Source: an uncultured Alloprevotella sp. (GTDB taxonomy: Bacteria; Bacteroidota; Bacteroidia; Bacteroidales; Bacteroidaceae). From it: a DNA stretch of 64,000 nucleotides. The position numbers were made by a program, and so were the translations under genes. The DNA is taken from NCBI GenBank assembly GCA_944322325.1, contig CALUOQ010000002.1, forward strand, positions 1-64,000, given 5' to 3'. Under the pieces are notes generated by a model. It was not told the origin of the DNA. It worked only from the letters and a program-made list of their open reading frames with translations, and did not search any database. Shown here one piece after another: positions 49,073-64,000 of this stretch (position 1 is the stretch's first letter; each line of letters opens with the position of its first letter).

Positions 49073-50767
49073 CTAAAAGTGTACTGAATAACAGAAAATG
49101 GGCAAAATATGGCAAAAATGGAGAATATAAGAAATTTGCAAGTTATTGATAATAAGGAAGATAAATTCTTTTATTTTCCCATGATTTCTATGCCTTGTAC
49201 CGGCTCTGGGTACTGAGTTGGAGAAAGAAGAAAATCTTTCTCCTTTTTCTTTTTTATCCCCTCGCAACTCGTTGGTTTGCTGAAAGATAAGGTCAAGCAC
49301 TTTGTTGTAAGAGTTGGTTCGATATTTTTCTCCGTCAAATTCGATTTTATCCTCAAAGATCGAACCTATGAGTTTGATTTTAGTCTCCAAAGGCGCATCA
49401 CGGATATACTTATCTATGTTGTTTATCAACAAGATAGCATAGTCTAACTTTGGTTCGATATTCCCCCGTTTGGTTAGTTCGAGTGCAGAAATGCGTGCTT
49501 GAAGCTCTGACACCTCTTTTTCGTACCGTTCCAAGATGCGATTATATCTATCAGAGTGATTTTTATCCATAATTAACAGGTCTTCCACCTCTTCAATCTG
49601 AGATTGCTTTGCAGCGACCTCCTTTTTCAACTTGTCTATCTCTGCCTGAATTTCACGCTTACTATCTCCGTGCAAATCTTTCAGCACTTCTTCATACAAA
49701 TTCAGCACCTCTTCTTTGGGTTTCAATGCTCCCACATATTGGGCAAAGCCCTCATTGACTTCTTCTGCACGTTTACGGATATGCTTGGCATCGTGGCAAC
49801 AATTATAATAGGTGTACTGCCCTCCATTGCCTCTGCTTGTAGCACCCGTTAGGGCATGACCACAGACGGGGCAAACGAGAAATTTCCGCAAGAATAAATC
49901 GGGATTGGTAGGCTTGCCCAATTTGGGTTTCCCTTTCTTCTTTCCGTCAAGCAATTCTTGCATTTGTTGGAAGGTGGCTTCACTTATCAACGGCTCATGC
50001 AGTCCATCTACTAAATGAGATGGCGCACCGTTATATTCGGGCACTCTAATCTTTCCCATATAAAAAGGGTTTCTGAGCATACCCATAAATGTGCTTTCTG
50101 CAATTTGAGGGCAATACCTTCTTCTTGCATAGTCGGCACTGATAGTACCTTTGGCAAATTCTTCAAATGCTTTCCGTATGGATTTGGCTTCTTCACTGAA
50201 CTCAACATACTTTTCTATTACCATACCGTTAGCATCCACACGGTGCTTGTTCTTATATCCTCGTGGAGCTTTGTTATAGCATTTGCCTTGAGACGCTGTT
50301 CCATAGATACCGTCTTTGGTAGCTTTTGAGCGGCTAAGGTTGTCGCCTTGGGCCTGACCTATATATATGCCTAACAATGTCGGCCAATTGGAATTGTTGA
50401 AATCTATCAGTTCCTCAATGGCATTAGGCTCTACATCCATAGAACGTAAGTCTTGCACAACATTGGCCGCTTGTGGTAAATCTCGTGAAAAGCGATTCCA
50501 ACGCAAGAAAAGCAATTTATCCACATCTTTCTTGTGGCTCTTTATATACTTTAATATGGATTGCATTACAGGACGTTTCTTAAACGTCTTTGCGCTCTCA
50601 TCTTCTTTGAAGTTCGGAAGTTCTATAATATTGTAACCCATTCGTTTGCAATACTCTCTCAATCTTTCTTCCTGTACTTCTACACTTGTACCTTTTCTCT
50701 GTTCGTCCGTACTTACACGGCAATAAATGATAACATTTGTCTGATTAGTATTTTCTTTTGTCTTCAT
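49073..50767 (-). CDS. Large serine recombinase with a chimeric C-terminus
   Basis: The 564-residue protein has the resolvase catalytic domain ('VIIYCRVSTDEQRKGTSVEV', nucleophile Ser in 'RVSTDEQ', and 'FLRWNRFSRDLPQ'). Then come a Recombinase domain ('AFEEFAKGTISADYARRR'), a zinc ribbon ('FLVCPVCGHALTG' with 'YYNCCHD') and a long coiled coil (about 375-440). Large serine recombinases insert or excise elements with short att sites and no host accessory factors. The last 42 residues are encoded inside the neighbouring tRNA-Leu element (49073-49199) because that element was inserted at the att sequence within or behind this gene's 3' end. Whether the tail matters is unknown. Confidence 0.9.
   Translation of the reverse strand: MKTKENTNQTNVIIYCRVSTDEQRKGTSVEVQEERLREYCKRMGYNIIELPNFKEDESAKTFKKRPVMQSILKYIKSHKKDVDKLLFLRWNRFSRDLPQAANVVQDLRSMDVEPNAIEELIDFNNSNWPTLLGIYIGQAQGDNLSRSKATKDGIYGTASQGKCYNKAPRGYKNKHRVDANGMVIEKYVEFSEEAKSIRKAFEEFAKGTISADYARRRYCPQIAESTFMGMLRNPFYMGKIRVPEYNGAPSHLVDGLHEPLISEATFQQMQELLDGKKKGKPKLGKPTNPDLFLRKFLVCPVCGHALTGATSRGNGGQYTYYNCCHDAKHIRKRAEEVNEGFAQYVGALKPKEEVLNLYEEVLKDLHGDSKREIQAEIDKLKKEVAAKQSQIEEVEDLLIMDKNHSDRYNRILERYEKEVSELQARISALELTKRGNIEPKLDYAILLINNIDKYIRDAPLETKIKLIGSIFEDKIEFDGEKYRTNSYNKVLDLIFQQTNELRGDKKEKGERFSSFSNSVPRAGTRHRNHGKIKEFIFLIINNLQISYILHFCHILPIFCYSVHF
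49200..49214 (+). repeat. Right attachment site of the tRNA-Leu element
   Basis: CCGGCTCTGGGTACT is an exact copy of 36560-36574. It marks the end of the integrase-bearing element and the start of a more AT-rich island. Confidence 0.85.
49220..49252 (+). terminator. Displaced terminator of tRNA-Leu
   Basis: GGAGAAAGA (49220-49228) pairs with TCTTTCTCC (49235-49243), followed by TTTTTCTTTTTT. It lies right behind the att core, where the terminator of tRNA-Leu would be if the 12.6-kb element were removed. Confidence 0.7.
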
Positions 50768-50771
50768 AAAA

Positions 50772-50921
50772 TCAATTATTTAAGTTCACCAATTCGTTTT
50801 CACTCTCTATTTGAAGTTGTGCCAACAAGTACAGATATTCCCGTATCTGCTTTACTTCTTCATTGCTATATTTCTTCTTTCCATTGTTCAACATTTTTGT
50901 GCATGTTTCCAAAGTCAACAT
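50772..50921 (-). CDS. Small protein before the serine recombinase, 49 residues
   Basis: The frame begins MLTLETCTKMLNNGKKKYSN and ends at TGA 50772-50774, 4 bp before the start of the large serine recombinase. The product is charged and helical, without a signal or membrane segment. The close coupling to the recombinase suggests a real gene, perhaps a regulator or directionality factor. I know no family for it. Confidence 0.5.
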   Translation of the reverse strand: MLTLETCTKMLNNGKKKYSNEEVKQIREYLYLLAQLQIESENELVNLNN

Positions 50922-51043
50922 AGCTGTTATACATAAGGTGTGCATCGCTGCACTTATTTGTTTTTTGCCTCCCTACCATAGCAGCACTATAGTAGGGACT
51001 TCTGTTCGGCGGGATAAGCGTAAAACCCATTTTACTCAAATTT

Positions 51044-51454
51044 CTATGCTCTTAGTCTTTTCTTTCGTTTAGTTACTGATTCTCTTTCCGTCAATTTAAG
51101 GATGGATGATAATTCAATATCCCAATATGTTATGTATTTCCCCATTCTGACATCATAAACAGCAATACCTCTTCTATCTAAGGCTGTCAAGAAATCCATA
51201 ATCCTTGAGAGCCAACGACTGATTCTAGCCCAATTAGATATAATGATAGTATTTACTTCGGGATTTGACTCTAAAGTTCTCATCAAATCTTTCAGGGATT
51301 GTTCAAAATCATCATACTGGAATTTGAACACATCTTTTACATTGCAACCTTCTTCTTTAGCATATTGCTTACACATACTAAGGTTCTCGTACCTTTTCGG
51401 ATTCTTTTGAGATTCCGAAATACAAATTACTGAATTAACAATTTTACTATTCAT
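51044..51454 (-). CDS. Resolvase-like protein with a degenerate active site
   Basis: The 136-residue protein follows the serine resolvase catalytic fold. 'IIISNWARISRWLSRIMDFL' matches the family stretch 'L-S-R-L-G-R' with both arginines kept, and 'RRGIAVYDVRMGKYIT' follows. At the N-terminus the usual 'Y-x-R-V-S' is replaced by 'ICISESQKN', so the first active-site arginine is missing and the serine is shifted. No C-terminal HTH is present. It may be an inactive accessory or regulator, or a decayed gene. About 220 bp of AT-rich sequence without a gene separates it from the next resolvase. Confidence 0.65.
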   Translation of the reverse strand: MNSKIVNSVICISESQKNPKRYENLSMCKQYAKEEGCNVKDVFKFQYDDFEQSLKDLMRTLESNPEVNTIIISNWARISRWLSRIMDFLTALDRRGIAVYDVRMGKYITYWDIELSSILKLTERESVTKRKKRLRA

Positions 51455-51676
51455 ATTTATTTATTTTAAAAAAACTTGTTTATTAAACACAGTGCAAATA
51501 TACTACCATTTATCAATGAATCCAAAAGTGTTAAAATAACGTCATTTCACACACAAAACGCTGTATTTTAAGTAAATAGCTGATACTCAGCAATACTAAT
51601 ATCCTATATGAAATGTTTATGCTAATACAAGTGAAAAAATTGGCAAATGTTAAATTATTTAACTATATTAAAGATA

Positions 51677-52300
51677 TTATTTAACAAATATTATAGATAG
51701 CTTTCGCAAAGTGTTAATGCTCGTATGGGTGATTTTTGAGACATTTCGCAAAGAATATCTTTTTTTCAGCAGCCGAATTTCTTCTGCATACTCTTCTTTC
51801 ATTTTTTCCTCAGACTTTCGATAACCCTGTTTTCTTCCGACAAGCCCACCATTAGCACGGAAATTCTGATACCCACTATCCATACGTTCTTTAATGGTTT
51901 TTCTTTCCATTCTTGCCACTTCCGCTAGGATTGTGATAAGGAATTGGCTCATTGGATTTACTTTTCCGTCTTCCGTTAATGTTTCTATGTGGTAATTTTC
52001 GATGTATAGGCTTATACCTTTGAGATTAAACATTTCTATCACTTCTAACACCTGCAATGTATCACGTCCAAGTCTGGACAACTCAGTTACCACAACTTTA
52101 TCTATATTGTTAGCCTCCACATATTCAACCATTCGCAATAATTCAGTACGTTCACTGTTTTTCTTTGCACCTGATACTTTTTCAGCAAAAGATGCGGCAA
52201 TCTCCCATCCATTACGTTTGGCCAATCCCGTAAGTTCATTGATTTGTCTGTCGTAATCCTGTATATTGGTTGATACTCTTGCGAACAATACTACTTTCAT
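51677..52300 (-). CDS. Serine resolvase/invertase
   Basis: The 207-residue enzyme has an intact catalytic domain: 'VVLFARVSTNIQDYDRQINE' (nucleophile Ser), 'VVTELSRLGRDTLQVLEVIE', and the E-helix 'LITILAEVARMERKTIKERM'. A basic linker ('NGGLVGRKQGYRKSEEKMKE') and a C-terminal HTH-like end ('YSLRNVSKITHTSINTLRKL') follow. It could resolve co-integrates or dimers or invert a segment. It is divergent from the XRE gene at 52455, with facing promoter boxes in the 154-bp gap. Confidence 0.9.
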   Translation of the reverse strand: MKVVLFARVSTNIQDYDRQINELTGLAKRNGWEIAASFAEKVSGAKKNSERTELLRMVEYVEANNIDKVVVTELSRLGRDTLQVLEVIEMFNLKGISLYIENYHIETLTEDGKVNPMSQFLITILAEVARMERKTIKERMDSGYQNFRANGGLVGRKQGYRKSEEKMKEEYAEEIRLLKKRYSLRNVSKITHTSINTLRKLSIIFVK

Positions 52301-52454: not shown

Positions 52455-52766
52455 ATGGAATACAACCTGAGTAGCAGAGTGAAAGAATTATGCCGTCAAA
52501 GAGGTATTCAGCTAAAGGATTTAGCTCAAAAGATGGGTATAGCCCCTGAAAGCCTTAGTCGGGCTATCAATGGCAATCCTCAACTATCTACAATTAAAAG
52601 TATTGCTGAAAATTTGAAAATTCCCATTTCTGAATTATTTGCCGTCAAAGAGCAAATTCCATTGAATGCGATTATTGTGTGCAGGGATAAGACCTATTCT
52701 GCTCAAACTTTATACGAATTGAAACTGCTTGTGAATGAGATAGAACGTGAATATGCCAATCTTTGA
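52455..52766 (+). CDS. XRE-family transcriptional regulator
   Basis: The 103-residue protein has a Cro/CI-type HTH at residues 7-60: 'RVKELCRQRGIQLKDLAQKM' followed by 'GIAPESLSRAINGNPQLSTI' and 'IAENLKIPISELF'. The short C-terminal part contains 'IIVCRDKTYSAQTLYELKLL'. It most likely controls its own divergent promoter region and the resolvase opposite. Its stop codon overlaps the upstream end of the following gene, so both are in one operon. Confidence 0.88.
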   Translation: MEYNLSSRVKELCRQRGIQLKDLAQKMGIAPESLSRAINGNPQLSTIKSIAENLKIPISELFAVKEQIPLNAIIVCRDKTYSAQTLYELKLLVNEIEREYANL

Positions 52767-52777
52767 TAAGTGCGTTT

Positions 52778-53692
52778 ATGGATAAAGTAAAACTGAAATA
52801 TGACCCTAATCTATCAATAAAGGAGAATGCTGCAATGTGTGGCGTTTCTGAATCCGCAGTTAGGAAGTATATCAGGACAAATGGAATTGACCGTAACTAT
52901 GACAACAAAGTAGTTAAAAAGAGAACCATACTTGCTTTAAGGAAAGAGAATCCTACCATATCATTGGCTGAAATGTCCCGTAGGTTGGGCTATTCAACCA
53001 ATACCATAAAGAAATACCTTAGCTTGGATGAGAATCAATCAGATATTGACACTTCCAAGGTGTCAACTTTTGATATTACTAAACCTTCTGTAGTTATAAA
53101 GACTGTAAGTGAAAACCAAGATGAGATATTACACAATATCCTAAGATTGTATGTCAAGAAAAGCACTTTTGATTGCGATTTTACATATTCTGTCGGAAAC
53201 TTTTATATTAGCCTGAATAAGCCACTATTTAAATTTGACATAAATCCCCAATTAGAAGATGTCCGCCCATTAGATGAAGCACATGACATATCACCAAACT
53301 CATTACATTCTGTTGTCGTTGATTTACCATTTATCGTAAATGTAAACAACAATGGAAAATTCAAATCCAAGATAGCTAAAAGATTTGACTATTTCAAGAG
53401 CGAAAAAGAACTGTATGAGGCCAATAATCGTATGATTGAGTTAGCTTACAGTAAACTGAAAATCGGCGGTTTCCTCATTATGAAGACTATGGATGTGTGT
53501 GGCCCTTCAAAGCAATTATGGATTAACAATTACGTGCAGAACAAAGCTGCCGAATGTGGATTCATACTTGAGGATATCTTTATCTTGGTCTCGCAAACCA
53601 AATACTTGTTTACAAGTGGGTTAAGGCAAAGACACGCCCGTAAGTACCACTCATACTTCTTTGTATTCCGTAAGGGGAAAAAGCATAAATAG
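52778..53692 (+). CDS. Tandem-HTH protein with a methyltransferase-like C-terminal domain
   Basis: The 304-residue protein begins with two HTH segments (about 10-40 'NLSIKENAAMCGVSESAVRK' and 52-80 'ISLAEMSRRLGYSTNTIKKY'). The rest looks like a Rossmann-type methyltransferase: 'LHSVVVDLPFIVN' replaces the DPPY/F catalytic motif with DLPF, and 'AYSKLKIGGFLIMKTMDV', 'AAECGFILEDIFIL' and 'RHARKYHSYFFVFRK' follow in the order seen in phage and element methyltransferase-like proteins. The glycine-rich SAM motif is not obvious. It could modify DNA or act only as a regulator. The ATG at 52778 is preferred over an in-frame TTG at 52763. Confidence 0.6.
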   Translation: MDKVKLKYDPNLSIKENAAMCGVSESAVRKYIRTNGIDRNYDNKVVKKRTILALRKENPTISLAEMSRRLGYSTNTIKKYLSLDENQSDIDTSKVSTFDITKPSVVIKTVSENQDEILHNILRLYVKKSTFDCDFTYSVGNFYISLNKPLFKFDINPQLEDVRPLDEAHDISPNSLHSVVVDLPFIVNVNNNGKFKSKIAKRFDYFKSEKELYEANNRMIELAYSKLKIGGFLIMKTMDVCGPSKQLWINNYVQNKAAECGFILEDIFILVSQTKYLFTSGLRQRHARKYHSYFFVFRKGKKHK

Positions 53693-53757: not shown

Positions 53758-53976
53758 TTAACTATTCTTGGGCTTGCCTCCATTAAATCGCCAAATGGTA
53801 ACAATAATTGCCAAGGCAAAAGCTATCCAAGAGAATAGAGAAATAGCTGCATCTTGAAGCCATTCTTTCAGTGTCACGTTGGATAGCCGTTTGTTGTGGT
53901 CAAACTGATACTCAAACCAAACAAGATGCAAGGCTGCCGCAACTACACCAAGCAAATAAATTCCTAATATACTCAT
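53758..53976 (-). CDS. Small two-helix membrane protein
   Basis: The 72-residue protein has two hydrophobic helices (ILGIYLLGVVAAALHLVWF and AAISLFSWIAFALAIIVTIW) around a short polar loop with charged residues. It is the last gene of the minus-strand operon that starts at 58296, 71 bp behind its neighbour. The size and topology could fit a pore-forming effector or a holin, but also any small membrane subunit; no family is recognised. Confidence 0.6.
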   Translation of the reverse strand: MSILGIYLLGVVAAALHLVWFEYQFDHNKRLSNVTLKEWLQDAAISLFSWIAFALAIIVTIWRFNGGKPKNS

Positions 53977-54047
53977 CTGATTTTGAATTATATGTTATAC
54001 AAGAAGTTGAATATATATCATTCGTGTAATGACGTTCTATTTCGTTT

Positions 54048-55154
54048 CTATAAGGATGAGGATTTTACAAACTCAGCAATTTCAGATAAGATTTTATCCA
54101 AATCTCCAAAAGACAATCCTATCGCCCCTTCTGCCAACTTTGGAACCAGCGTGGAGATAGATTCGTTAGCATACTCATCCAATTTCCATTTCAACTGTTC
54201 TATTTCTTTCTTATTTGCGCTTAACAGGGGTTGATACTCCTTGTTTGTCAACTCTTTGTGCCGTAATTTTCTTTTCAGCTCTTGATTCTCTTTGGCAAGT
54301 TCTTCTTTCCTGTTTTGAAGAGTTTCTTTTCTAAGGCAATATTCTTTGTAGAAAGCTACTATTTCCTCCTTTTTCAGTTGGAAAAGGGCGAAATGCCATT
54401 CTTTTTCATACTTGTCACATTTTTCCCTTAGACTTTCATAGTTTTGCTCCCAATCTCTTAGTTGTGCATTAAGTAAATTGACTTTGGCTTGATAACGAAA
54501 CTCCTTTATGCTTTCCGTATAGAACTCTCTTGTAGTTTCATTCTTCAATATATCTATGGTTTCAGGCAACGTATAGGCTTGATAACATTCTTTCGCATCG
54601 TGATAGTCTGCCAATATATCTGTAAATTTCGGCCACAATTTTCTAAAGAATGGAACTCTCACAGTTTCAGTCTTACCATCCTCTGTAACCTTTGCACAAA
54701 GGTTTCCACCACTGAGCGGACTGCCTGACAGATACCATATCAAAGCCATAGCATCGTCTTTTTCATCAAACAGGACAGAATAAGGACAATTAAACCACCA
54801 TTCAATATATACGCCCAACGTAGCTGTCTGAAATGCTCCAGAGTAAGCCAAACCGTTTCTAACTGTAACAGGCGCAAGCAACATCCTGCTGTCGCTCAGA
54901 ATCCTTTCATGATTGGCCAATATGAGGAAAGCATTATCCGTAAATAGTTTCTGCAAGTATCTCTCTTCCTCATCCTTAGGCTTGGGCTTTGCAGGTTTCT
55001 TTTTAATGCTGAAATATACACCTGTTTTGTCTAATACGGGAGTTTCCTTAGCCTCTTCCATCACTGCATCCTGCTGTATGGGATAGCCTTGTATGATACG
55101 CCCGTCTTGCAGTTTTATTCCGTTTACTATCGTATTGCTTTTTTCCATATCCAT
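54048..55154 (-). CDS. Unknown protein with a long C-terminal coiled coil
   Basis: The 368-residue protein has no signal peptide or membrane helix. Residues 60-215 form a mixed domain with aromatic stretches ('LAYSGAFQTATLGVYIEWWF', 'MALIWYLSGSPLSGGNLCAK'). Residues 220-335 are a strong coiled coil rich in Glu, Lys and Leu ('KEELAKENQELKRKLRHKEL'). A short helical end follows. It starts 2 bp after the stop codon of the 181-residue gene. I recognise no family; the coiled coil suggests assembly or a scaffold role. Confidence 0.7.
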   Translation of the reverse strand: MDMEKSNTIVNGIKLQDGRIIQGYPIQQDAVMEEAKETPVLDKTGVYFSIKKKPAKPKPKDEEERYLQKLFTDNAFLILANHERILSDSRMLLAPVTVRNGLAYSGAFQTATLGVYIEWWFNCPYSVLFDEKDDAMALIWYLSGSPLSGGNLCAKVTEDGKTETVRVPFFRKLWPKFTDILADYHDAKECYQAYTLPETIDILKNETTREFYTESIKEFRYQAKVNLLNAQLRDWEQNYESLREKCDKYEKEWHFALFQLKKEEIVAFYKEYCLRKETLQNRKEELAKENQELKRKLRHKELTNKEYQPLLSANKKEIEQLKWKLDEYANESISTLVPKLAEGAIGLSFGDLDKILSEIAEFVKSSSL

Positions 55155-55156
55155 AT

Positions 55157-55702
55157 TTATTGCCGTTTTGTTTCTATTGATAATCCGAATAAGTTTTTAT
55201 AAAGCCTTTGGCGATAATACCAAGGCGTGATTCCTACACCCTCATCAGCCAACTTAAGAATTTCATCTGCACTTGTATGCAAATTCTGTATCATAGCCTC
55301 AAGATTATCAGCAATAATCATGTTTGCTGTTTCAATATAAGGCATATAAAGTTCTGTTCCTTGTTCCTGACTACTTATAAGGACAAAAGGATTCTGCCTT
55401 ATATGATAGGTCAATTCCTTGTCTTTCAACGTCCAATGTTCACATATCGCTTCATCGTTCTCCCTAAGTTTGTAGAATGCAAAGGCAATTATCCCACATT
55501 TGGAGATATAGTAACACAATGTCTTTCTGTCAATGTTGAGCAGAAGCAATGATATCCTGTTCAGACAAAAGACAAAAACAAACGGGATATGACCACCTGC
55601 CAATGTCTGTACAACAGATTGCTTGTAGACATCGCTCCATTTGCTTGAAACATCTAATACAGCAAACTGTCTGATTGCATTGTATCGTATTATTTCTGTC
55701 AT
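55157..55702 (-). CDS. Unknown protein, 181 residues
   Basis: The protein has a hydrophobic central part ('GGHIPFVFVFCLNRISLLLL') that looks like buried strands rather than a membrane helix. Its C-terminal half is helical ('IIADNLEAMIQNLHTSADEI'). No catalytic motif is evident to me. It overlaps the start of its neighbour by 4 bp on one side and lies 2 bp from the next gene on the other, so it is tightly coupled in the operon. Confidence 0.65.
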   Translation of the reverse strand: MTEIIRYNAIRQFAVLDVSSKWSDVYKQSVVQTLAGGHIPFVFVFCLNRISLLLLNIDRKTLCYYISKCGIIAFAFYKLRENDEAICEHWTLKDKELTYHIRQNPFVLISSQEQGTELYMPYIETANMIIADNLEAMIQNLHTSADEILKLADEGVGITPWYYRQRLYKNLFGLSIETKRQ

Positions 55703-56544
55703 TTTATGTGCGCATAATCAGGTATTATCACATCATCCCCATCGTCATATTTCAATATAACTTGGTTTCCGTCATTGTTCATATTCCAAGCCTCCGCAAT
55801 CCGCTCGTAATTGCGTGTGAAAGGAAATCTGTAAAGGTTATAGGGAGAGAAACTTATCATATAGTCAGTTAAAAGGGCTTGCTGTTCAGGGGTAAGCAAA
55901 TCCTTGTATGTACCGTGCAGACAATAGCAGTTTGTCTCTATGCTTATGCACGTCTCGAAGCGTTCACCCTTTGTCTCGCTATCCCTTATGTGGAAATGAG
56001 GAATTGACATCTCATCGTCTGTCTTTACATATACTTCATACTTGTCATTCTCACCAAAGTAGCCAATGCGTGCTATCTCTTCATTGTATTTATAAAGCAT
56101 CCTGAAATACTCCTTGGCCAATGGTATATCCTTTTCCAAACGGAGAACAAAATTCACGATATCCTCATCTTCCGTACATTCTATCTTGTCGTAACCAATG
56201 CTTTGGAAGTATTCTTCCACACATTCCTGAATGGCCTCCCAATCCAATTCATCAATGCAGCCTATTATCCAAGACCTGTCATCGGCATCCCGTAAGGCAC
56301 ATTTTAACGTAATAGACTTAACTATCATAGAGTTATGTTCACAAGCCACATCCAATCTCAAGTACATATTGCGGATGCTGCCAAACCGCTTGATTAGCAT
56401 AGACTTCAAAGGGGTAGGCGACCATTGAGACCAAAATCGTGCAGTCAATGCGGCATTGATTTCATTCAATTCTACATATTCATAGTCCCCACAGACAGAG
56501 CATAAGTCCTCCGTACTGCGTTTGAGAAATACTTTCCTACTCAT
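55699..56544 (-). CDS. Unknown protein, long paralogue of its upstream neighbour
   Basis: The 281-residue protein has two parts. Residues 1-150 match the 147-residue protein encoded just upstream: 'QWSPTPLKSMLIKRFGSIRN' against 'LWSPSPLKAMLLKRLGTVKQ', and 'FQSIGYDKIECTEDEDIVNF' against 'FHNIGYRNIECTGDEDIICF'. Residues 165-281 form a separate domain with 'SIPHFHIRDSETKGERFETC' and 'TPEQQALLTDYMI', a His-x-His-bearing pattern I have seen in many small bacterial proteins of unknown role. It overlaps both neighbours by 4 bp. Confidence 0.7.
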   Translation of the reverse strand: MSRKVFLKRSTEDLCSVCGDYEYVELNEINAALTARFWSQWSPTPLKSMLIKRFGSIRNMYLRLDVACEHNSMIVKSITLKCALRDADDRSWIIGCIDELDWEAIQECVEEYFQSIGYDKIECTEDEDIVNFVLRLEKDIPLAKEYFRMLYKYNEEIARIGYFGENDKYEVYVKTDDEMSIPHFHIRDSETKGERFETCISIETNCYCLHGTYKDLLTPEQQALLTDYMISFSPYNLYRFPFTRNYERIAEAWNMNNDGNQVILKYDDGDDVIIPDYAHIK

Positions 56545-56984
56545 AAGCCTTCGTCTTCGATGATTTCAAAATAAGCCTTAGTCAATGGAACATCCTGCTC
56601 CAACCTCTTCACGAAACAGATAATATCCTCATCCCCTGTACATTCTATATTCCTGTAACCTATGTTGTGAAAATACTGTTTCAGGCATTGATAGACCGCC
56701 TCCATATCCATCTCTGAGCTATACAACCTTTCCACATCATCCAACAGATTACATCTCAATGAAATAAATGTAACTATGTTATCTGCATATCTTACTTTAA
56801 GACTGAGGTACAGTTGTTTTACTGTTCCTAATCGCTTTAACAGCATCGCTTTTAACGGTGAAGGCGACCACAAAGGCAGATAGCAATCAGTCAAAGCCTT
56901 GCTTATGGGGTTGAGTGAAATTACATCATAATCATCACCTCCCCAATTCATATCTTCCGTGCTTTTCAACAATAATACTTTCAT
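56541..56984 (-). CDS. Unknown protein, short paralogue
   Basis: The 147-residue protein corresponds to the N-terminal half of the next gene's product and lacks its second domain. Shared marks are 'WSPSPLKAMLLKR', a pattern of alternating strands, and 'GYRNIECTGDEDIICFVKRL'. It is soluble, slightly acidic, and without known motifs. The tandem arrangement suggests duplication followed by loss or gain of the C-terminal domain; the two may form a heteromer. Confidence 0.7.
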   Translation of the reverse strand: MKVLLLKSTEDMNWGGDDYDVISLNPISKALTDCYLPLWSPSPLKAMLLKRLGTVKQLYLSLKVRYADNIVTFISLRCNLLDDVERLYSSEMDMEAVYQCLKQYFHNIGYRNIECTGDEDIICFVKRLEQDVPLTKAYFEIIEDEGL

Positions 56985-56992
56985 AGCGGTCT

Positions 56993-57490
56993 TTATTGTC
57001 TGTTGCTAAATTCTTTTTCAATAAGTCCAATGGATGTTTCCAGTACGGATGGAGAAAGTGATAATGGCTTTATTTCGTATTTTTCTATTAACTCATAGAA
57101 GCGTTCTATGCCATCCCTTTTCAGCATTCCGATATGGAAGTCAAGGAAAGCTAAAGTTTCAGCGTCAGCCTCTTCTTTCAATGCAATGGACTCTTCTATA
57201 GACGCTTGCAACTGTGAATTGTACTGTTTCCATTCAGTCCATAACTTCTTATACCTGTCGTAATCATATAGTATGTTCTGATGTTGTTCATAGAGCATTC
57301 CAAGTTCCCACTTAATCCTCGCCATAATGTTTTCCATTGTAAAGCCATTACGGAAATAAGCAGATTTGGATAGCCCTTTGCATGGCTTTTCCATTGTAAT
57401 AGAGTAAGTGGAATAAGGGATAATCCTGCAATTTCCCTCCAATGCAATTCCTCTGTATAGCGTATTGATTTTGAAAGTTTCTATTCTCAT
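56993..57490 (-). CDS. Unknown protein with a helical middle, 165 residues
   Basis: The N-terminal 50 residues are strand-like ('IETFKINTLYRGIALEGNCR'). The middle (about 55-125) is a long charged helix or coiled coil ('NIMARIKWELGMLYEQHQNI', 'QLQASIEESIALKEEADAET'). It has no signal or membrane segment. It overlaps the NADAR gene by 4 bp and lies 8 bp before the short paralogue gene. No family is recognised. Confidence 0.65.
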   Translation of the reverse strand: MRIETFKINTLYRGIALEGNCRIIPYSTYSITMEKPCKGLSKSAYFRNGFTMENIMARIKWELGMLYEQHQNILYDYDRYKKLWTEWKQYNSQLQASIEESIALKEEADAETLAFLDFHIGMLKRDGIERFYELIEKYEIKPLSLSPSVLETSIGLIEKEFSNRQ

Positions 57491-58296
57491 AACCTGTCCT
57501 CCCCGTCAAAAGTCAACAACTCTCCGAACAGATATATTTTCTTTTCTCTCAGTAAGTCATAGTCAATGGGTGGGATAACATTGTTTCTTAATGCGATTTG
57601 GCACATTTTCAAAATCTTGCCCATATTGTTTTCTCCGACAAAGTTACCGACATTCGTTATTTTGCCACATTCCTTTGATATAAGCAGATTCAAATCTTTC
57701 TTCTTCATGCTAGGATATTCAGCGCATAGTTCTTTCTTCCTTGCCCTGCGCACCTTTCTTAGCTCTTTGTTCTTCGCTCCCCATATCATACAGGTAGCTC
57801 CGTAATTGGCTGTACTATCCTCGATGATAACTGCATCGTCAGGAATGGATAGAAGCAAATTTTTGAAGTCTGCATTGCCTATGCACTTATGCCAAACGAC
57901 ATAGAGCATCCATTGCAGACGGACATCATTCCAATCTTGTCTGATATGCTCAGCATTTTTACGTTTAATGACTTTTTTACAAAGGAAAGCATTCGGCTCT
58001 GCCTGCAAATCACGCTGTATGGCTTCATTTAAGGCTGTATGTGAAGAGAACTCCCCACAAAGGTAGGCTGCTTCACTCGTGCGAAAGACATGCCCGTTTA
58101 AGGGGAAAGAATAACCTTTGCATAGATTCCCCAAACAGAGAGTAATCCCGTCTCTCACGTCAGTAGCCTTACAGAAAGGCCAACAATTTTGTTCGCTTGC
58201 ATCGTATATCTCAGTACGACCAAGCACTATTTCATCAAAAAGTGAATGGGTAGAAGTGGTGTAGCGGTTGCTACCAATAATGTTACGGTCATCCAT
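57487..58296 (-). CDS. NADAR-family protein (ADP-ribose-related hydrolase fold)
   Basis: The 269-residue protein matches the NADAR/YbiA pattern over residues 45-185. Visible parts are 'LCLGNLCKGYSFPLNGHVFR' with 'SEAAYLCGEFS', then 'AEHIRQDWNDVRLQWMLYVV', 'GNADFKNLLLSIPDD' and the final 'IIEDSTANYGATCMIWG'. NADAR proteins process ADP-ribose-linked substrates; some remove ADP-ribose from guanine in DNA and act as antitoxins to DarT-like toxins. The C-terminal 80 residues are a separate helical part ('SKECGKITNVGNFVGENNMG'). It is the first gene of a seven-gene operon. No ADP-ribosyltransferase motif is visible to me in the partners. Confidence 0.75.
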   Translation of the reverse strand: MDDRNIIGSNRYTTSTHSLFDEIVLGRTEIYDASEQNCWPFCKATDVRDGITLCLGNLCKGYSFPLNGHVFRTSEAAYLCGEFSSHTALNEAIQRDLQAEPNAFLCKKVIKRKNAEHIRQDWNDVRLQWMLYVVWHKCIGNADFKNLLLSIPDDAVIIEDSTANYGATCMIWGAKNKELRKVRRARKKELCAEYPSMKKKDLNLLISKECGKITNVGNFVGENNMGKILKMCQIALRNNVIPPIDYDLLREKKIYLFGELLTFDGEDRL

Positions 58297-58547
58297 ATTG
58301 TTTGTTTTTAATTGTTAGACAATCCGCATCATTTTACCACCGTGGCCACAATATATAAGGCTCGGTTGGTGTACATTCAAGTACTCTTGATGCTTTACGA
58401 TTGCAAATATACTATATGAATATAACAAATTCCTAATTTGTTGCAAGAATATTTGTTAATATACGCTCAATAGCATTTATAGTTACATGTGTTTCGTGTT
58501 GTTTGAATGTTCCTTTACTTCTATCCCAACAGTTATTTCTTCTTAAA
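58297..58547 (-). promoter_or_regulatory. Leader of the NADAR operon with -7 box
   Basis: In this 251-bp gap the minus strand reads TATATTTG at 58406-58413, about 110 bp ahead of the NADAR start. The region is AT-rich with no coding frame of note. It separates the NADAR operon from the zinc-ribbon/SPFH operon. Confidence 0.45.
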
Positions 58548-60620
58548 TTAGTACTTAAAATAGCATACGATTTTTTCATTAGATGCGTTAAAGGTGATTT
58601 GTGAAATTTTTCCATTATGCCGAATAACATTCACTCCATTCATATCAAGTGGGGTACATAATGGATAAGGAGTGTACATACTGACTGGCAATACAAAACA
58701 TATATATTTCCTTTCTAATGCCTCCATCGTAAATTCTTTAGCTCTGTTCTTATTATCGTATTCAAAAAGAGCCAACCCTGCGCTTTGAATCATTCTTCCC
58801 TGTCGATCATAAGTAAGAGTCGTTATCTTCATTTTCTCATTATCTTTACAGAGGTATAAATCAACATAGTATCGGCTCTCATCGGAATAGCTTTTGCGGA
58901 TTTCCTCCTCATAAGTAGCATATTCTATATCATTACTGTTATTGTCTCTTTCTTCAGAAGAAACTAATTTCTCATTTTCAAACTTATAAGAGATGGTTAT
59001 ATCTCCGTCATAAGCATCTATGTCTGTCAGATACCCTTGATTGTTAAAATAATAAGTGGTGCTATCTTTAGAAGTAACGGCTATGATTTCCTTTATGCCA
59101 AATGGTAAGGCAAGTTTCTGCAAGTCTGTTGCCGCTACTTCTTCAACTCTTTTCAAAAATTCTGTTTCTTCATATTGTTTGGCTTCTGCTGCCTTTCGTT
59201 CTTGCTCTGCTTTCTCGAAAGCTGCTCTTTCTGCTAATCTTTCTTGTTCTGCTTGTTCAAGAGCTGTTTTTTCAGCAATTTTTTCTTGTTCCCTACTATT
59301 TTGTATGTTTCCTACAGCTTGAATCATACAATATCCCCATATAATCAATACAATACCTGTTATTATCTTTACCCATAGACAATTTGCTTTGCTATCTACA
59401 GACATATCTTTACGCTCAACCTCTCGCTTAATAGTGCTGAGGAGTTCTTTTGTCTTGGAATCAGTCATTCCAAAGCCGTTATGCGTAAGCGTAAATGACA
59501 ACTGTTCTTTTCGTTGTAACCATGTTTCATTTTGATTTTTTGTCTGTACAGCTTGAGCCTTTTTCTTCTCTTTTAGCCTTTTCTTTGTCATACTTCCATT
59601 GATAAAAGTCAGAAGCATAAAGGCAATGGAAAGTAATATGCACCAAAGAGAAACGTTTTCCTCAGTTAAGAAAACCGAAGTTATTAGTGTTGCCAAAGAA
59701 AAAAGGATAAAATAGAATATGCTCCAACCGCTTTTACTGCTTTTTTGAGCCAAATCTTTCTTAATAGTTTCGCTCTCCGATGCTTGCTTTTCATCTATTG
59801 GTGAGTTTAGTCTTGTCGTTTTGACTAATCCGTCCGTCACAAATATAAATTTCTTTCCCTTATATGAATAGTAGACGACCCAAAAGGGCAGTATCATATC
59901 CCAAGAAGGGTTATTGTAGCTATATGAATAAGAAAGGTCTTCATATCTGTCAGGTAGTTGTGAACGTACAGTTTTTCTAACTCTTGCAGCTAAAAGGCCT
60001 TCACAGTTTTGTTTCCATAATAAACCATGACTGAATCCCCCATTTTCAACCAATATGGCCGATTCCTCATTTGTCAATTCACGTACCTTGGAATTGTCAT
60101 AATAAGACGCTCCTTTGGTTATCATTTCCGTATTTATGAACTCATACAGTTCTTTGGGCAAATCTTCTTTTCTTCCTGCACAAGTGATATAGGTGAAAGA
60201 ATCCATAGCTACACCATTCATAGGGTAACGCTCCGTGGTTTTCTTTTTCTCATTGCGTCCAGTAGATCTGTTATACACCTCATACTCTCTTGTTACAAGT
60301 TTCACACAACTCCAAGGGGCTTCAAAACTGCATTGATAATAATAAACAGGGATATAATAGGGCTTAACTTCATCCACTTTACAATTTTGGAAGAAGTCTT
60401 TAGGCAAATTTTCTTTTTCCGTCAGTTGATAAAGCATCTTTTGAACGGCATCTTCTTCTGACGTTTGAAATTCAAAGATGCGCTTCTCTTCATCTGAGTC
60501 AGAATCCGATTTCTTTTTACGCTTTGGTTTAGGCATAGGAATCTTAGTTCCGCAATACTCACAGAATCTACCTGCTGTGCCTTCTGCACCACAATTCGGA
60601 CAAATCGCTTTGGTATTCAT
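58548..60620 (-). CDS. Zinc-ribbon membrane protein with coiled coil
   Basis: The 690-residue protein starts with a zinc ribbon ('ICPNCGAEGTAGRFCEYCGT'). A soluble domain of about 260 residues follows, then two adjacent membrane helices at about 310-355 (WSIFYFILFSLATLITSVFL and LWCILLSIAFMLLTFI) and a third at about 440-460 (IITGIVLIIWGYCMIQAV). Next is an Ala/Glu-rich coiled coil (about 465-510), and then a C-terminal domain with YD-like strands ('LTYDRQGRMIQSAG'). The start at 60620 has an AAGGA stretch ahead of it and opens the ribbon. Its stop is the end of the SPFH operon. The function is unknown. Confidence 0.7.
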   Translation of the reverse strand: MNTKAICPNCGAEGTAGRFCEYCGTKIPMPKPKRKKKSDSDSDEEKRIFEFQTSEEDAVQKMLYQLTEKENLPKDFFQNCKVDEVKPYYIPVYYYQCSFEAPWSCVKLVTREYEVYNRSTGRNEKKKTTERYPMNGVAMDSFTYITCAGRKEDLPKELYEFINTEMITKGASYYDNSKVRELTNEESAILVENGGFSHGLLWKQNCEGLLAARVRKTVRSQLPDRYEDLSYSYSYNNPSWDMILPFWVVYYSYKGKKFIFVTDGLVKTTRLNSPIDEKQASESETIKKDLAQKSSKSGWSIFYFILFSLATLITSVFLTEENVSLWCILLSIAFMLLTFINGSMTKKRLKEKKKAQAVQTKNQNETWLQRKEQLSFTLTHNGFGMTDSKTKELLSTIKREVERKDMSVDSKANCLWVKIITGIVLIIWGYCMIQAVGNIQNSREQEKIAEKTALEQAEQERLAERAAFEKAEQERKAAEAKQYEETEFLKRVEEVAATDLQKLALPFGIKEIIAVTSKDSTTYYFNNQGYLTDIDAYDGDITISYKFENEKLVSSEERDNNSNDIEYATYEEEIRKSYSDESRYYVDLYLCKDNEKMKITTLTYDRQGRMIQSAGLALFEYDNKNRAKEFTMEALERKYICFVLPVSMYTPYPLCTPLDMNGVNVIRHNGKISQITFNASNEKIVCYFKY

Positions 60621-60656
60621 AAATATATCCTTGTTTATTATATCCGACTTCAAATT

Positions 60657-61775
60657 TTATTTGCCTGTAATCTTATCCTTTAATAATAGCATTGCTCCCT
60701 TTGCGAAGTCCTTAGCACCAAAAGTATTGTTCTTCTTATATTCCTTTTGCGCCTTGGCCTTGCTTTGATAGGAATTTATATCTATTGTAACAGGCACATC
60801 TTTAGGGACTGATAGAATGTCTGTAGCCACATTACACAAGAAATTTGTTGCTGCTCTCGTATCGTCATCAAACGAAAGGACTATCCTTGCATATTCTTTG
60901 TCGTATCTATCCAATCCCTTTTCTAAGGCGTATGAAACACTCTTTTCCGTAGCAAATTTTGCGACCTTATTCAAATCTGCTTGCCAATCCTTAATGATTA
61001 TGAAAATTTGAGGTTTACCACTGTTCACCTTCTCTTCAAACAATGGCATCCATTTGTTATATTTGCTGAATACTACATTACATATACCAAATGAATTTAT
61101 CCCCAATCGCGGGTCATCGTCAGTCATTTTCTCTTCATCAGCAGGGTCTATCTTATCCAAATCCAATGCCATAAAGATTGTCACCTCGTTTTTAGGCTTT
61201 TCATTCTGTATGGCAATAAATTTTTCCATACTCGATAATATATCATCATAATATGATATTCCGTCAGGTAATTCTATTGTGGTACGGACATCAAATAGCT
61301 TATATTTTACGCCAATTCCATTTTCTACTTCTTTGAGATTGATATGATTCTGCACTTCTTCATCTGCATCAACAATATCTTTCTTCGCTTTATCTTGGAG
61401 AAATTGTTTTCCACATACCTCGCATTCTTTGGCAAGTGCAGGTATTTGGTTGTGGCAGTGGGGGCAAACTTTTGTACATAAACGTAATATGTTCTGAATA
61501 TCCTCACTCAAATCCCCATTATTCGCACCATCCTTTAATTGACCAAAAAAAGTTTGGCTTTCACTTTTAGGCGTAAATATTCCGCTAAGTTTTTGAGTGG
61601 CTTCATCAAATTTGAACACAGAACTTTCATAACCTTTCTTCTCTGCTCGTTCATTGTATTTCCGTACCATTTTGGCCACCTTGTCTTTCGCTTCCTTTGG
61701 TACGTTCCATTCATGTCTTCCACTTGAAATGTAATCTTGCACTTCAAACAGTCCCATTAAGTTATCTTTTCCCAT
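60657..61775 (-). CDS. Protein with internal zinc ribbon, unknown role
   Basis: The 372-residue soluble protein has a charged N-terminal domain, a zinc ribbon at about residues 106-128 ('KVCPHCHNQIPALAKECEVC'), and a C-terminal mixed alpha/beta domain of about 220 residues ('NEVTIFMALDLDKID', 'PQIFIIIKDWQADLNK', 'KEYARIVLSFDDDTRAATNF'). The strand pattern could fit a vWA or nucleotide-binding fold, but I cannot find the MIDAS motif. It lies between the two zinc-ribbon or small membrane genes with gaps of 2-36 bp. An alternative start is the ATG at 61757. Confidence 0.6.
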   Translation of the reverse strand: MGKDNLMGLFEVQDYISSGRHEWNVPKEAKDKVAKMVRKYNERAEKKGYESSVFKFDEATQKLSGIFTPKSESQTFFGQLKDGANNGDLSEDIQNILRLCTKVCPHCHNQIPALAKECEVCGKQFLQDKAKKDIVDADEEVQNHINLKEVENGIGVKYKLFDVRTTIELPDGISYYDDILSSMEKFIAIQNEKPKNEVTIFMALDLDKIDPADEEKMTDDDPRLGINSFGICNVVFSKYNKWMPLFEEKVNSGKPQIFIIIKDWQADLNKVAKFATEKSVSYALEKGLDRYDKEYARIVLSFDDDTRAATNFLCNVATDILSVPKDVPVTIDINSYQSKAKAQKEYKKNNTFGAKDFAKGAMLLLKDKITGK

Positions 61776-61777
61776 GA

Positions 61778-62122
61778 CTATTTGATTTTATTTGAAATTA
61801 CGTTTGCGATAAGCAACAATATCAGTTGAAACACAACTATAAGTGCTATCACTATTATCACCCAATTATCTGTTATTCTACTGGGAGAAAAAAGCGACAA
61901 CAAAAGTTCTATGAATCCCAAGACTGGATATATCACATACAAAGATGATTTGAAGCCGTCTTTTAATGGCAATATCCCAATCAGCAACATAAAAGTGCTT
62001 GACAATATGATGATTCCACTGCTGAGAAGCACATTAAGCCACTCATAACTACTGAGTAACAGGCCAAACAAGAAGTTGGCGACAAGTAGTGTTGCACAAG
62101 TAAATAGGACTATTCTCTTCAT
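61778..62122 (-). CDS. Small membrane protein, four helices
   Basis: The 114-residue protein is almost entirely hydrophobic, with four likely helices (IVLFTCATLLVANFLFGLLL, LLSSGIIILSSTFMLLIGIL, SLYVIYPVLGFIELLLSLF and WVIIVIALIVVFQLILLLIA). No family is recognised. It lies 2 bp before the internal-zinc-ribbon gene and 12 bp after the SPFH gene, so it is part of the same operon. Confidence 0.65.
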   Translation of the reverse strand: MKRIVLFTCATLLVANFLFGLLLSSYEWLNVLLSSGIIILSSTFMLLIGILPLKDGFKSSLYVIYPVLGFIELLLSLFSPSRITDNWVIIVIALIVVFQLILLLIANVISNKIK

Positions 62123-62134
62123 TGTCGTATGCTT

Positions 62135-63247
62135 TTATATTGTAGGTAACGGTGGAGGACATTCTTCGCTAAGCAAAGATTGAAAGTCTTCCACATTGCA
62201 GATTTTATCCCACGCTTTCATGCCTTTTCTCCAAACCAATGTATCTGCATTGATTTCATTGGCAGAATACTTTTGGCATATAGCATCAAAATCCATTGGC
62301 CCAACAGATTTACCGTTAATGCCTAAGTAATAGACAATCGCTTTCGGCAATGACGGAGGAACATCATCAGGGGATAAGCCGTTGGAGAATGTCTTTGCAG
62401 CCATAGTTCCGACTGCGCCTCCTATTCCGACACCTGCGCCAAGTCCAAGTGCCGCATTCATTGCGCCTCCGCTCTCGTTTTCTGCTGCTGCATCCAAAAC
62501 ATCAAAGGAGCGTGAAAGTCTATAATTCTTCTCACCCATAATCTTGATTTCTGCTGCTGCATCCTTGGCATCTTTCAAGTTCAAGAAACTTGGGTCATCC
62601 TCTTTTACAGTAATGGATATGATATTGAACATTTCTATGCCTATGCCATATCTCAGAAAGACCTCTTTCAGACATTCCTTTGCGTACTCTGACAGAACTT
62701 CTACCTGAGAATTGATATTCAGCACAGATAAACCTTCTTCTTTCAGCTTGTCATATATGATAACGGTCAACTTAGATAGAATAACACCCCTGAAATATGA
62801 AACGACTTTATCCACAGAGAAAGAAGACATGTTACCGACCAACTTTTCAAGGAATGTCCTTGGATTTTCTATTCTGAATCCATATTGTCCGTAAGCTCTG
62901 ATTGGAACAATAACATCATATTTGGGGTCTTCTATCTGCAATGGCGTTTGCGTACCCCATTTGCAATCAAGCAATGAAATTTGATTCACAAACCATACTT
63001 CCGCTTGGAAAGGAGAGTCGCCTCCGAAAGGCAGGTTTACAACCTTGTCTAATAGGGGGATATTTTCTGTCTTTATGGTGTAAGTGCCACTGCTAAACTC
63101 ATCATATAGTTTGCCCCCCTTCACAAAAATAGCCGTCTGTTCAGGATAGACCACTAACTGAGAGCCTAAGCGGATTTGCTCCGAAGGGAACTTATAAACA
63201 AGCTCCTTGTCGTTTACTTCCCATTTTACTACATCTACTATTGCCAT
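62135..63247 (-). CDS. SPFH-domain protein with C-terminal GYF_2 domain
   Basis: The 370-residue protein begins with an SPFH (YdjI/virion-core-like) domain: 'LVVYPEQTAIFVKGGKLYDE', 'GTYTIKTENIPLLDKVVNLP' and 'AYGQYGFRIENPRTFLEKLV'. A Gly/Ala-rich segment (about 265-290) follows. The end is a GYF_2/DUF4339 domain ('YYLGINGKSVGPMDFDAICQ' with 'DTLVWRKGMKAWDKI'). SPFH proteins form membrane-bound scaffolds; B. subtilis YdjI works with the zinc-ribbon protein YdjG and PspA in envelope stress. The presence of zinc-ribbon membrane proteins next door supports a comparable role. Confidence 0.8.
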   Translation of the reverse strand: MAIVDVVKWEVNDKELVYKFPSEQIRLGSQLVVYPEQTAIFVKGGKLYDEFSSGTYTIKTENIPLLDKVVNLPFGGDSPFQAEVWFVNQISLLDCKWGTQTPLQIEDPKYDVIVPIRAYGQYGFRIENPRTFLEKLVGNMSSFSVDKVVSYFRGVILSKLTVIIYDKLKEEGLSVLNINSQVEVLSEYAKECLKEVFLRYGIGIEMFNIISITVKEDDPSFLNLKDAKDAAAEIKIMGEKNYRLSRSFDVLDAAAENESGGAMNAALGLGAGVGIGGAVGTMAAKTFSNGLSPDDVPPSLPKAIVYYLGINGKSVGPMDFDAICQKYSANEINADTLVWRKGMKAWDKICNVEDFQSLLSEECPPPLPTI

Positions 63248-63258
63248 ACTCTTATGAA

Positions 63259-64000
63259 TTAATCAAATAGTGATGATAAAAACAGAGGCAACCCTACAAA
63301 CAGTAAAAAAAGAAAGATTACAATTGCAAAACTTATGAGAAATTTTAGACATTCTTTTTTACGTTCCTCTCTGAACTTTTCTTCCTCTTTTTTACGTTTT
63401 TCCCTGAACTTTTCTTCCTTTTCTTTATTTTCCTGTTCGATACATTGAAGGTAATATTCATATAGTTTATCCGTTGCATTCGTATATTTTGAATGGTCGA
63501 AAATCGTATTATAGAATGCTTGACAAATGAGGACAAATAGTATTTCCTTTCCTTCCTTAACCTCATCTATTTTACAGTTCTTCCAATCTAAATTGCAAAA
63601 TGTCTCTAAAATATCAAGGTTATCCGTTCCTATATACATATCATCAGAGTAATCATATTTTTTTCCATCCGAAATAATGGTTTTTATACCTCTTATCCGT
63701 AATTGGTTAAGAGTGAAAGAGTAGCTAATTCTATACTGACTAATCCTATCACAATGACCTATTTGATAAGATATTTCAAGGTCGGCTATGTCATTGAACT
63801 CGTCATATTCTAAACTAAAAATCCGTTCATCAAATTTGATTTGAGGCTTTCCCTTTATTTCACTGACAGAAACTTCAGGAGAAGGTTCGCTTTTTTTCGT
63901 TTTCTTCTTCTTTGTTTTTTTCGTTGCAACCAAAGATGCACCGCAAAATTGGCACGAAGTAGACGTGCTTTCATTGGGCGCACCGCAATTAGGGCAAATA
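63259..64000 (-). CDS. Zinc-ribbon protein with C-terminal membrane helix (5' end outside window)
   Basis: The frame is open to the right edge, so the start lies beyond 64000. The visible 247 residues begin 'ICPNCGAPNESTSTSCQFCG', a zinc ribbon like that of the 690-residue protein. A Lys-rich linker ('KKTKKKKTKKSE'), a soluble domain, a charged coiled coil ('KEEKFREKRKKEEEKFREER') and one C-terminal membrane helix (FLISFAIVIFLFLLFVGLPL) follow. It ends 11 bp before the SPFH gene and belongs to the same operon. The function is unknown. Confidence 0.65.
   Translation of the reverse strand, partial: ICPNCGAPNESTSTSCQFCGASLVATKKTKKKKTKKSEPSPEVSVSEIKGKPQIKFDERIFSLEYDEFNDIADLEISYQIGHCDRISQYRISYSFTLNQLRIRGIKTIISDGKKYDYSDDMYIGTDNLDILETFCNLDWKNCKIDEVKEGKEILFVLICQAFYNTIFDHSKYTNATDKLYEYYLQCIEQENKEKEEKFREKRKKEEEKFREERKKECLKFLISFAIVIFLFLLFVGLPLFLSSLFD

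Follow-up and report, generated by a model that had tools for sequence, protein, structure and literature searches.

A seven-gene operon of an uncultured Alloprevotella sp., located in the window (the whole 64,000-nucleotide stretch that was analysed), is preceded by a predicted SAM-I/IV-class riboswitch that may pair with the start codon of the first gene, which encodes a NADAR-family protein. From sequence comparison, and at a probability of roughly 0.5, we propose that the operon is a conflict regulon gated by this riboswitch; the regulon would be silent while S-adenosylmethionine (SAM) is abundant and expressed once SAM levels collapse. The SAM switch is a new element relative to the initial annotation of this DNA, which had read the cluster as a possible NAD/ADP-ribose-linked conflict system. 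The features of the locus are listed in Table 1.

Table 1. Predicted leader elements and genes of the NADAR operon (positions are those of the window).
Feature	Position	Strand	Description
-7 box	58404-58411	minus	TATATTTG; presumed Bacteroidales type (TAnnTTTG); 5 nt upstream of aptamer
SAM-I/IV riboswitch aptamer (RF01725), predicted	58294-58398	minus	54.2 bits; 3' end reaches NADAR start codon
P3-loop strand of predicted pseudoknot	58348-58355	minus	TATATTGT; PK-2 topology
3' strand of predicted pseudoknot	58294-58301	minus	ACAATATG; contains NADAR ATG (58296-58294)
Operon	53758-58296	minus	seven open ORFs, NADAR gene first
NADAR-family gene	57487-58296	minus	269 aa; profile matches
CC165	56993-57490	minus	165 aa; coiled-coil label from the initial annotation
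P147	56541-56984	minus	147 aa; paralogue of P281 N-terminal domain
P281	55699-56544	minus	281 aa; two domains, C-terminal 'PHFH' domain
P181	55157-55702	minus	181 aa; narrow family, 15 clusters
CC368	54048-55154	minus	368 aa; conserved N-terminal domain and long helices
TM72	53758-53976	minus	72 aa; two hydrophobic stretches (by eye)

The aptamer scored above the gathering cut-off of the RF01725 covariance model (41.1 bits) and was the sole RF01725 site found in the 2.72-Mb genome assembly (90.67% complete). When 24 aptamers were compared, a box matching TAnnTTTG, which we take to be the Bacteroidales-type -7 consensus, ended 0-7 nt upstream of the aptamer at 10/24 sites, compared with 120/9404 control slots. 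The columns that presumably correspond to SAM-I residues 6-8, 11-12, 44-47, 57-59 and 87 were invariant or at least 90% conserved, although this conservation is partly the result of selection because the 24 aptamers had been retrieved with that same family model. These residues are those given for the SAM pocket of SAM-I in PMC6890682. Further, two-sided changes were present in 10 of the 20 predicted base pairs. We predict that the leader is a SAM-I/IV-class riboswitch, with SAM as its probable ligand. It shares with that class the score above the cut-off, the pocket positions, the 3' hairpin in the Rfam alignment and the P3-loop/tail pseudoknot, but differs in that conflict-like or unknown genes lie downstream and in that the pseudoknot often includes the start codon itself. 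The class is described as 'several phyla, marine' in PMC2864571. The riboswitch was absent from the initial annotation, and it is the main feature that was overlooked.

The P3 loop of the window aptamer is predicted to be able to pair with the NADAR start codon. This loop/tail pairing lies outside the nested structure of the Rfam model, and its topology, PK-2 (P3 loop and 3' tail), is that described for SAM-IV (PMC6890682). Pairing was retained across the 24 related aptamers despite altered partner sequences; the summed loop/tail pairing score was 332.5, compared with 261.0 +/- 11.9 when partners were swapped, and none of 300 swaps reached it. An ORF follows at 19 of the 24 sites; among these, the best pairing fell on the ATG in 10, at most 10 nt upstream in 7 and elsewhere in 2 (raw counts, without a chance baseline). 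At individual sites the pseudoknot carries less weight, because the ATG is common to many tails: for any one loop, between 0 and 13 of the 23 other tails paired no worse than the cognate tail did.

All seven ORFs were found as initially annotated, with the same coordinates and junctions, and their arrangement supports one operon. From NADAR to TM72, successive genes are joined by a 4-bp overlap, an 8-bp gap, two further 4-bp overlaps, a 2-bp gap and a 71-bp gap. The full gene order is also present in a Phocaeicola MAG (L005), and a diverged version occurs in G544/L037; since the order in L005 is identical, the arrangement is more than chance. The description of the surroundings as an AT-rich island with recombinases likewise held, as GC content was 0.371 over 50-64 kb versus 0.599 over 13-35 kb and recombinase-like genes (named by eye) lie nearby at 49073-52300. 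A PADLOC search gave no match accounting for any operon protein, and neither metK nor another recognised SAM-linked gene was present in the window operon.

The assignment of the first gene to the NADAR family is real but remote. The protein matched Pfam NADAR PF08719 with 28.0 bits (E 2.9e-6), below the curated cut-off of 35.1, and NCBIfam NF053876 with 48.2 bits (E 6.3e-13), below the equivalog cut-off of 240. NF053876, the DS32_2 anti-phage NADAR, is the best family match of the clade and was matched by 10/10 clade members at E <= 1e-3 (best 1.4e-19), although the window protein falls far short of its cut-off. Further, a profile of 10 relatives matched E. coli YbiA (PDB 2b3w; E 6e-4). E75 and E159, which correspond to the distal-ribose-facing E43/E125 of the P. 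nicotianae NADAR, are kept in 10/10 clade rows. In contrast, the position of the catalytic Lys, which aligned to the Lys of E. coli YbiA, is E82 in the window protein and E, Q, L or I in all 10 clade members. According to PMC11543638, the corresponding K95 of the E. coli C7 NADAR coordinates phosphate and is essential, with Arg tolerated in vitro. Enzymatic activity of the clade is therefore uncertain. The initial annotation had noted that NADAR enzymes reverse DNA ADP-ribosylation in toxin systems; because the phosphate-binding Lys is absent from every clade member, plain DarT-antitoxin action is unlikely, and a guanine-ADP-ribose hydrolase or antitoxin role for the window protein is not supported.

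Among the partner proteins, the two paralogues noted previously, P147 and P281, are 46% identical (E 3e-36). The AF2 model of P281 (pLDDT 85.2) had no significant fold match in the PDB. In a comparison with an alignment of 11 of 23 DUF4160 matches, the C-terminal domain of P281 resembled DUF4160 (PF13711) around the PHFH motif: the local hhalign comparison gave E 1.7e-4, a probability of 49.5 and a score of 28.5, which none of 200 column shuffles reached (maximum 20.5). The PHFH motif is common to both, but masking PHFH lowered the score to noise (13.5), and the global alignment had a probability of 5.4. CC368 is widespread (252 clusters, 120 among the matches listed); its N-terminal domain is strongly conserved (about residues 60-205), and its model, for which no significant fold match was found, contains long helices. 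Homologues of CC165 lie downstream of NADAR in L005, G544 and G808, and L005 also encodes a TM72 counterpart of 72 aa.

The first genes at sites located through the RNA encode NADAR, CC368, a P281-like protein with ADP-ribosylglycohydrolase (ARG), AAA, FGase-like or small proteins; methionine biosynthesis was recognised in no first gene behind the related aptamers. CC368 and the riboswitch co-occurred by genome (7/10 versus 10/159, p 2.9e-6), and model R1 recovered two CC368-linked aptamers outside its training set (L011 and L041). No riboswitch of the SAM-I/IV type was found in the stretch examined at 11/20 CC368 loci, nor at the NADAR loci L075-L078, L080 and L081. The diverged operon of G544 comprises NADAR, MetK, CC368, P281-like, ARG and NT5C genes. 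ARG with NT5C, PARG, calcineurin-like and WYL genes occur in relatives; the partner tallies around CC368 have no whole-genome background.

In the proposed SAM-gated regulon, the riboswitch would cover the NADAR start codon while SAM is plentiful, acting as a translation-level OFF switch; depletion of cellular SAM would then likely turn the operon on. Phage SAM lyases could provide this trigger. The T3 SAMase both breaks down SAM and inhibits MetK (PMC8406200), and neutralisation of RM or BREX has been reported for phage SAM lyases (PMC12255297). With less support, the operon products may form an emergency response, in which CC368 and P281 would serve as adaptor or target-binding proteins, the NADAR-clade protein, its phosphate contacts altered, would bind or cleave an ADP-ribose-like or other nucleoside conjugate, and the spare MetK of G544 would refill SAM after the host enzyme had been poisoned by the phage. 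Going further, we suggest tentatively that in gut Bacteroidota the SAM-I/IV riboswitch has been put to a new use, sensing infection through SAM collapse and releasing a second-line defence. This set would comprise NADAR, ARG/PARG, CC368, P281, the AAA ATPase, the spare MetK and the small protein near R-M genes, and its release would be timed exactly to the disarming of SAM-dependent restriction by phage SAM lyases. The input could instead, though less probably, be an immune signal made from SAM, such as SAM-AMP. The conflict-system part of the earlier reading is partly supported, with the mobile-island setting and ARG/PARG genes beside relatives in its favour. Its frame lacked the riboswitch, which points to SAM sensing and not NAD/ADP-ribose alone.

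SAM riboswitches normally govern sulfur metabolism, and the operon could instead respond to metabolic stress, its riboswitch controlling how nucleosides or peptides derived from SAM are salvaged or detoxified; NADAR would then be an N-glycosidase, and phage conflict would play no part. The substrate of the clade may indeed not be ADP-ribose, since the pyrophosphate-binding Lys is lost, and radical-SAM genes are present in L037 (by Pfam) and L005 (by clustering), L037 also carrying MetK. However, we consider this explanation unlikely given the recombinase-rich island, the patchy distribution of the genes (CC368 in 20/398 genomes, NADAR in 18/398) and the variable, poorly known partners. Further, R-M genes adjoin 3 of the 7 small-protein-type aptamer sites examined, and some related aptamers are located in IMG/VR contigs.

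Two other explanations centre on ADP-ribosylation. ARG-centric host systems against viral ARTs, which contain an ADP-ribose hydrolase, a phosphatase and chaperone-like proteins without an ART, are predicted in PMC9503650 (section 3.8). The operon could be such a counter-measure against foreign ARTs, the riboswitch being a regulator of convenience: both have ADP-ribose-processing enzymes and variable partners but no ART. Among relatives, the ARG gene of G544 overlaps that of the NT5C phosphatase in an operon with NADAR, G617 has PARG and NADAR together, and in G087 a P281-like gene is followed by ARG. However, the window operon has NADAR in place of ARG and an RNA switch in place of a WYL/Nudix repressor. 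Pfam recognised in it no ARG gene, although G087 and G544 have one, and neither a coupled phosphatase nor a WYL or Nudix regulator, which some relatives carry; the altered NADAR site also speaks against standard ADP-ribose removal. This makes this explanation distinctly improbable. A toxin-antitoxin pair, in which one partner is an unrecognised ADP-ribosyltransferase and NADAR its antidote, appears the least probable. NADAR antitoxins partner ARTs, according to PMC11543638 and PMC11125620, three families of ADP-ribose hydrolase are found repeatedly near CC368 or P281, and the window operon resembles DarT1-NADAR (DarTG1) in its tight operon of overlapping genes with a NADAR-family protein, but it has seven genes behind a riboswitch and lacks the Lys required for G-ADP-ribose hydrolysis. 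At E <= 1, searches of Pfam, PADLOC, NCBIfam and PHROGs gave the operon proteins no match to ART, Macro or TIR, and no effector fold was found in the two modelled proteins, P281 and CC368. As in the initial annotation, no DarT-like toxin was recognised, here by the profiles or in these two folds.

If the operon is indeed a SAM-gated conflict regulon, an antiviral response would be triggered by a metabolite riboswitch: SAM, a cofactor destroyed by phages, would be under guard, and its loss would lead to translation of an operon kept ready. This would explain what the SAM-I/IV class does in gut Bacteroidota and tie ADP-ribose-processing genes to SAM sensing. Further, searching for aptamers and their downstream genes would offer an RNA-based handle on unknown defence genes. 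In a literature search whose scope excluded subscription papers, preprints and supplements, we found nothing joining the SAM-I/IV riboswitch to NADAR or immunity. One phage-defence paper uses a theophylline riboswitch as a cloning tool, and another reports an island whose insertion site is a cobalamin riboswitch.

Seven open reading frames with the junctions described in the initial annotation were recovered in the operon (NADAR, CC165, P147, P281, P181, CC368 and TM72, numbers giving lengths in aa), and an Rfam search detected a SAM-I/IV riboswitch ahead of them, the only such site in the assembly (90.67% complete). The riboswitch was present in nine of 11 genomes selected on the basis of these genes and, under stricter filters, in 17 of 169 family genomes not chosen by gene (16 above the cut-off). 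We aligned 24 aptamers, leaving out the duplicates G509 and G646, a third site in genome G544, a contig-end site (G561b) and a below-cut-off site in G550. G509 shares place and score with G087 and is probably the same genome, and G646 resembles G808. The core columns were invariant, partly as an effect of selection, since the family model itself had retrieved the sites; both sides had changed in 10 of 20 pairs.

A pseudoknot between the P3 loop and the 3' tail is described as a feature of the clan (PMC6890682). It was scored separately: the pairing scores of loops with their own tails summed to 332.5, compared with 261.0 +/- 11.9 for 300 swaps (maximum 292.5); the signal per site was weak, with 0 to 13 of 23 other tails equalling the own tail. 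The pairing covered the ATG at 10 of the 19 sites with an ORF, lay no more than 10 nt upstream at seven and elsewhere at two; at the remaining five of the 24, the rule used identified no ORF. Further, TAnnTTTG, which we take to be the Bacteroidales -7 consensus, ends 5 nt ahead of the aptamer in the window, and 10 of 24 sites carried the box in the 20 nt upstream, versus 120 of 9404 control slots. An RNA switch ahead of the operon is well supported. SAM is its likely ligand, because the pocket is conserved in sequence, and the anatomy suggests that the switch would turn the operon off through start-codon pairing. We hypothesize that a collapse of SAM would be the trigger and that the operon may serve an anti-phage purpose.

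Coordinates and placement of features (window positions unless a locus is named)
Feature	Location	Strand	Remark
SAM-I/IV riboswitch	58294-58398	-	54.2 bits
P3-loop strand TATATTGT	58355-58348	-	pairs with ACAATATG
Tail strand ACAATATG	58301-58294	-	holds NADAR start codon
tRNA-Leu	36491-36573		at GC drop, about 0.62 to 0.46
HTH protein	52763-53692		beside operon
Zinc-ribbon, membrane and SPFH-like proteins	58548-63999	operon's strand	in series, immediately upstream
CC368-SprT fusion	L037 (G544), 17864-18688		own SAM-I/IV riboswitch ahead
Genes similar to the HTH protein	L005, 73-996 and 10350-11261		one at each end of cargo
RtcB-like ligase and neighbours	L009 (G000:C2 72678-77418)		about 9 kb past window's right edge
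Type III methylase	L161		183 bp from small-protein-type site
BanI-type restriction enzyme	L162		1.7 kb from small-protein-type site
Type IIG enzyme	L167		561 bp from site

We tallied the first recognised gene behind 24 sites from the 169-genome survey. It encoded a small protein (about 90 aa) at seven (five by phmmer, two by eye; one of these sites scored below the cut-off), NADAR at three (one of them broken; 239 bp away in G544), CC368 at three (one 308 bp on, one the CC368-SprT fusion behind a 76-aa ORF), an FGase-like protein at three (one cut short), AAA at two (once about 1.0 kb away and once after a sigma-like gene) and P281 with ADP-ribosylglycohydrolase (ARG) at one; at the other five it was unassigned or the contig ended. 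None was recognised as a methionine biosynthesis gene; MetK sits inside the G544 operon. NADAR also lay behind two further riboswitches, in G659 and G690, from the genomes chosen for these genes.

Among the 169 genomes, the riboswitch occurred in seven of 10 with CC368 versus 10 of 159 others (p = 2.9e-6; in G495 and G561, RNA and CC368 were on different contigs), and in four of seven with NADAR versus 13 of 162 others (p = 0.002). The search model R1 detected 12 sites in 33 sources; CC368-linked sites absent from model building were L011, from another family and immediately upstream, and L041, one gene upstream. We assembled 20 CC368 loci (the window, L005, G429, G176 and 16 of 19 other CC368 genomes, leaving out G717, G774 and G860 with short or coiled-coil-only matches). 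The riboswitch was found at nine and not at the other 11, and a one-family AAA gene was present at eight within the stretch examined. No riboswitch was found at NADAR loci L075, L076, L077, L078, L080 and L081.

The gene order was also found elsewhere, as a neighbourhood check proposed with the initial annotation showed. A Phocaeicola MAG (L005) keeps it with one extra 168-aa gene, and recombinase-like genes nearby are similar to those of the window. The G544 operon is diverged: NADAR, a CC368 short form, a CC165 homologue, MetK, a 178-aa gene, CC368, P281-like, FGase-like, a 218-aa gene, ARG and NT5C nucleotidase. G617 carries AAA, CC368, DUF2130, PARG and NADAR, and in G087 ARG follows a P281-like gene. 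Sampling of the family around G478 found CC368 in 20 of 398 genomes, NADAR in 18 and both in six (Fisher p = 9.3e-5, relatedness not corrected). NADAR matches at E < 1e-20 occurred in 11 genomes, of which four carried a CC368-type gene within about 10 kb (G478, G617, G544 and, as a short form, G541). P281 relatives were rare (41 clusters), compared with 252 for CC368 (best 120 of 252 listed) and 15 for P181. In G808 (L082), about 14 kb of unrelated genes separate the N-terminal piece of NADAR from its remainder, after which CC165/P147/P281-like genes come; this is a decayed copy.

The NADAR assignment stood as a real but remote match in Pfam, NCBIfam and a 10-member profile. The Pfam score was below the family cut-off, NCBIfam DS32_2 matched at E 6.3e-13, far under the equivalog cut-off, and the profile recovered YbiA (2b3w) at E 6e-4. 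The two acidic residues facing the distal ribose are kept (E75 and E159). In E. coli C7 NADAR, a phosphate-coordinating lysine is reported as essential, Arg being accepted in vitro (PMC11543638, section 12). All 10 clade members have E, Q, L or I at this position, and three fragmentary relatives have L, L and E (two being the same protein); seven further rows, for other NADARs in the genomes sampled, have R (two proteins counted twice). Several clade members match helix-turn-helix families; those of L075, L076 and L078 have N-terminal extensions, and L075 adjoins a Dcm-like methylase (named by eye).

PDB fold searches with the CC368 and P281 models, both of good quality (pLDDT 82.6 and 85.2), gave no significant match for either. 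The P281 C-terminal domain resembles DUF4160 through a PHFH motif only, and the G544 fusion joins a CC368-type N-domain to a SprT-like metalloprotease domain. At L157 (G531:C15, about 0.9-1.4 kb), a DUF4160-like gene and a second small gene, resembling DUF2442 by eye, lie about 0.5-0.8 kb behind a riboswitch; the pair recalls the PHFH domain.

Restriction-modification uses SAM. Such genes adjoin three of seven small-protein-type sites examined with flanks (of 28 neighbours, 10 chosen by eye were scanned; one site was below the RNA cut-off, and L167 had no recognised small protein). T3 SAMase is described as degrading SAM and also inhibiting MetK (PMC8406200), and phage SAM lyases reportedly neutralise RM or BREX (PMC12255297). 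An additional MetK controlled by a SAM switch would fit that attack. The aptamer class also occurs in IMG/VR contigs, so the switch may travel on phages or other mobile elements. In these contigs (L139-L144), it precedes small proteins of about 90 aa or an FGase-like gene; L141 has two aptamer copies and L143 also an ARG gene.

The window operon would work like the ADPr-reversal conflict operons predicted in PMC9503650, but we do not assign it to them because no ARG, phosphatase or WYL/Nudix feature was recognised in it. The GC profile agreed with the proposed AT-rich island, of which the tRNA-Leu is a possible integration site. The HTH protein has a DNA-methyltransferase-like C-terminus (phrog_24333, E 2.9e-36). 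The zinc-ribbon, membrane and SPFH-like series had no clear family matches in profile searches. L009 encodes an RtcB-like RNA ligase, a WYL regulator, a DnaQ-like exonuclease and a metallophosphatase, all but WYL named by eye.
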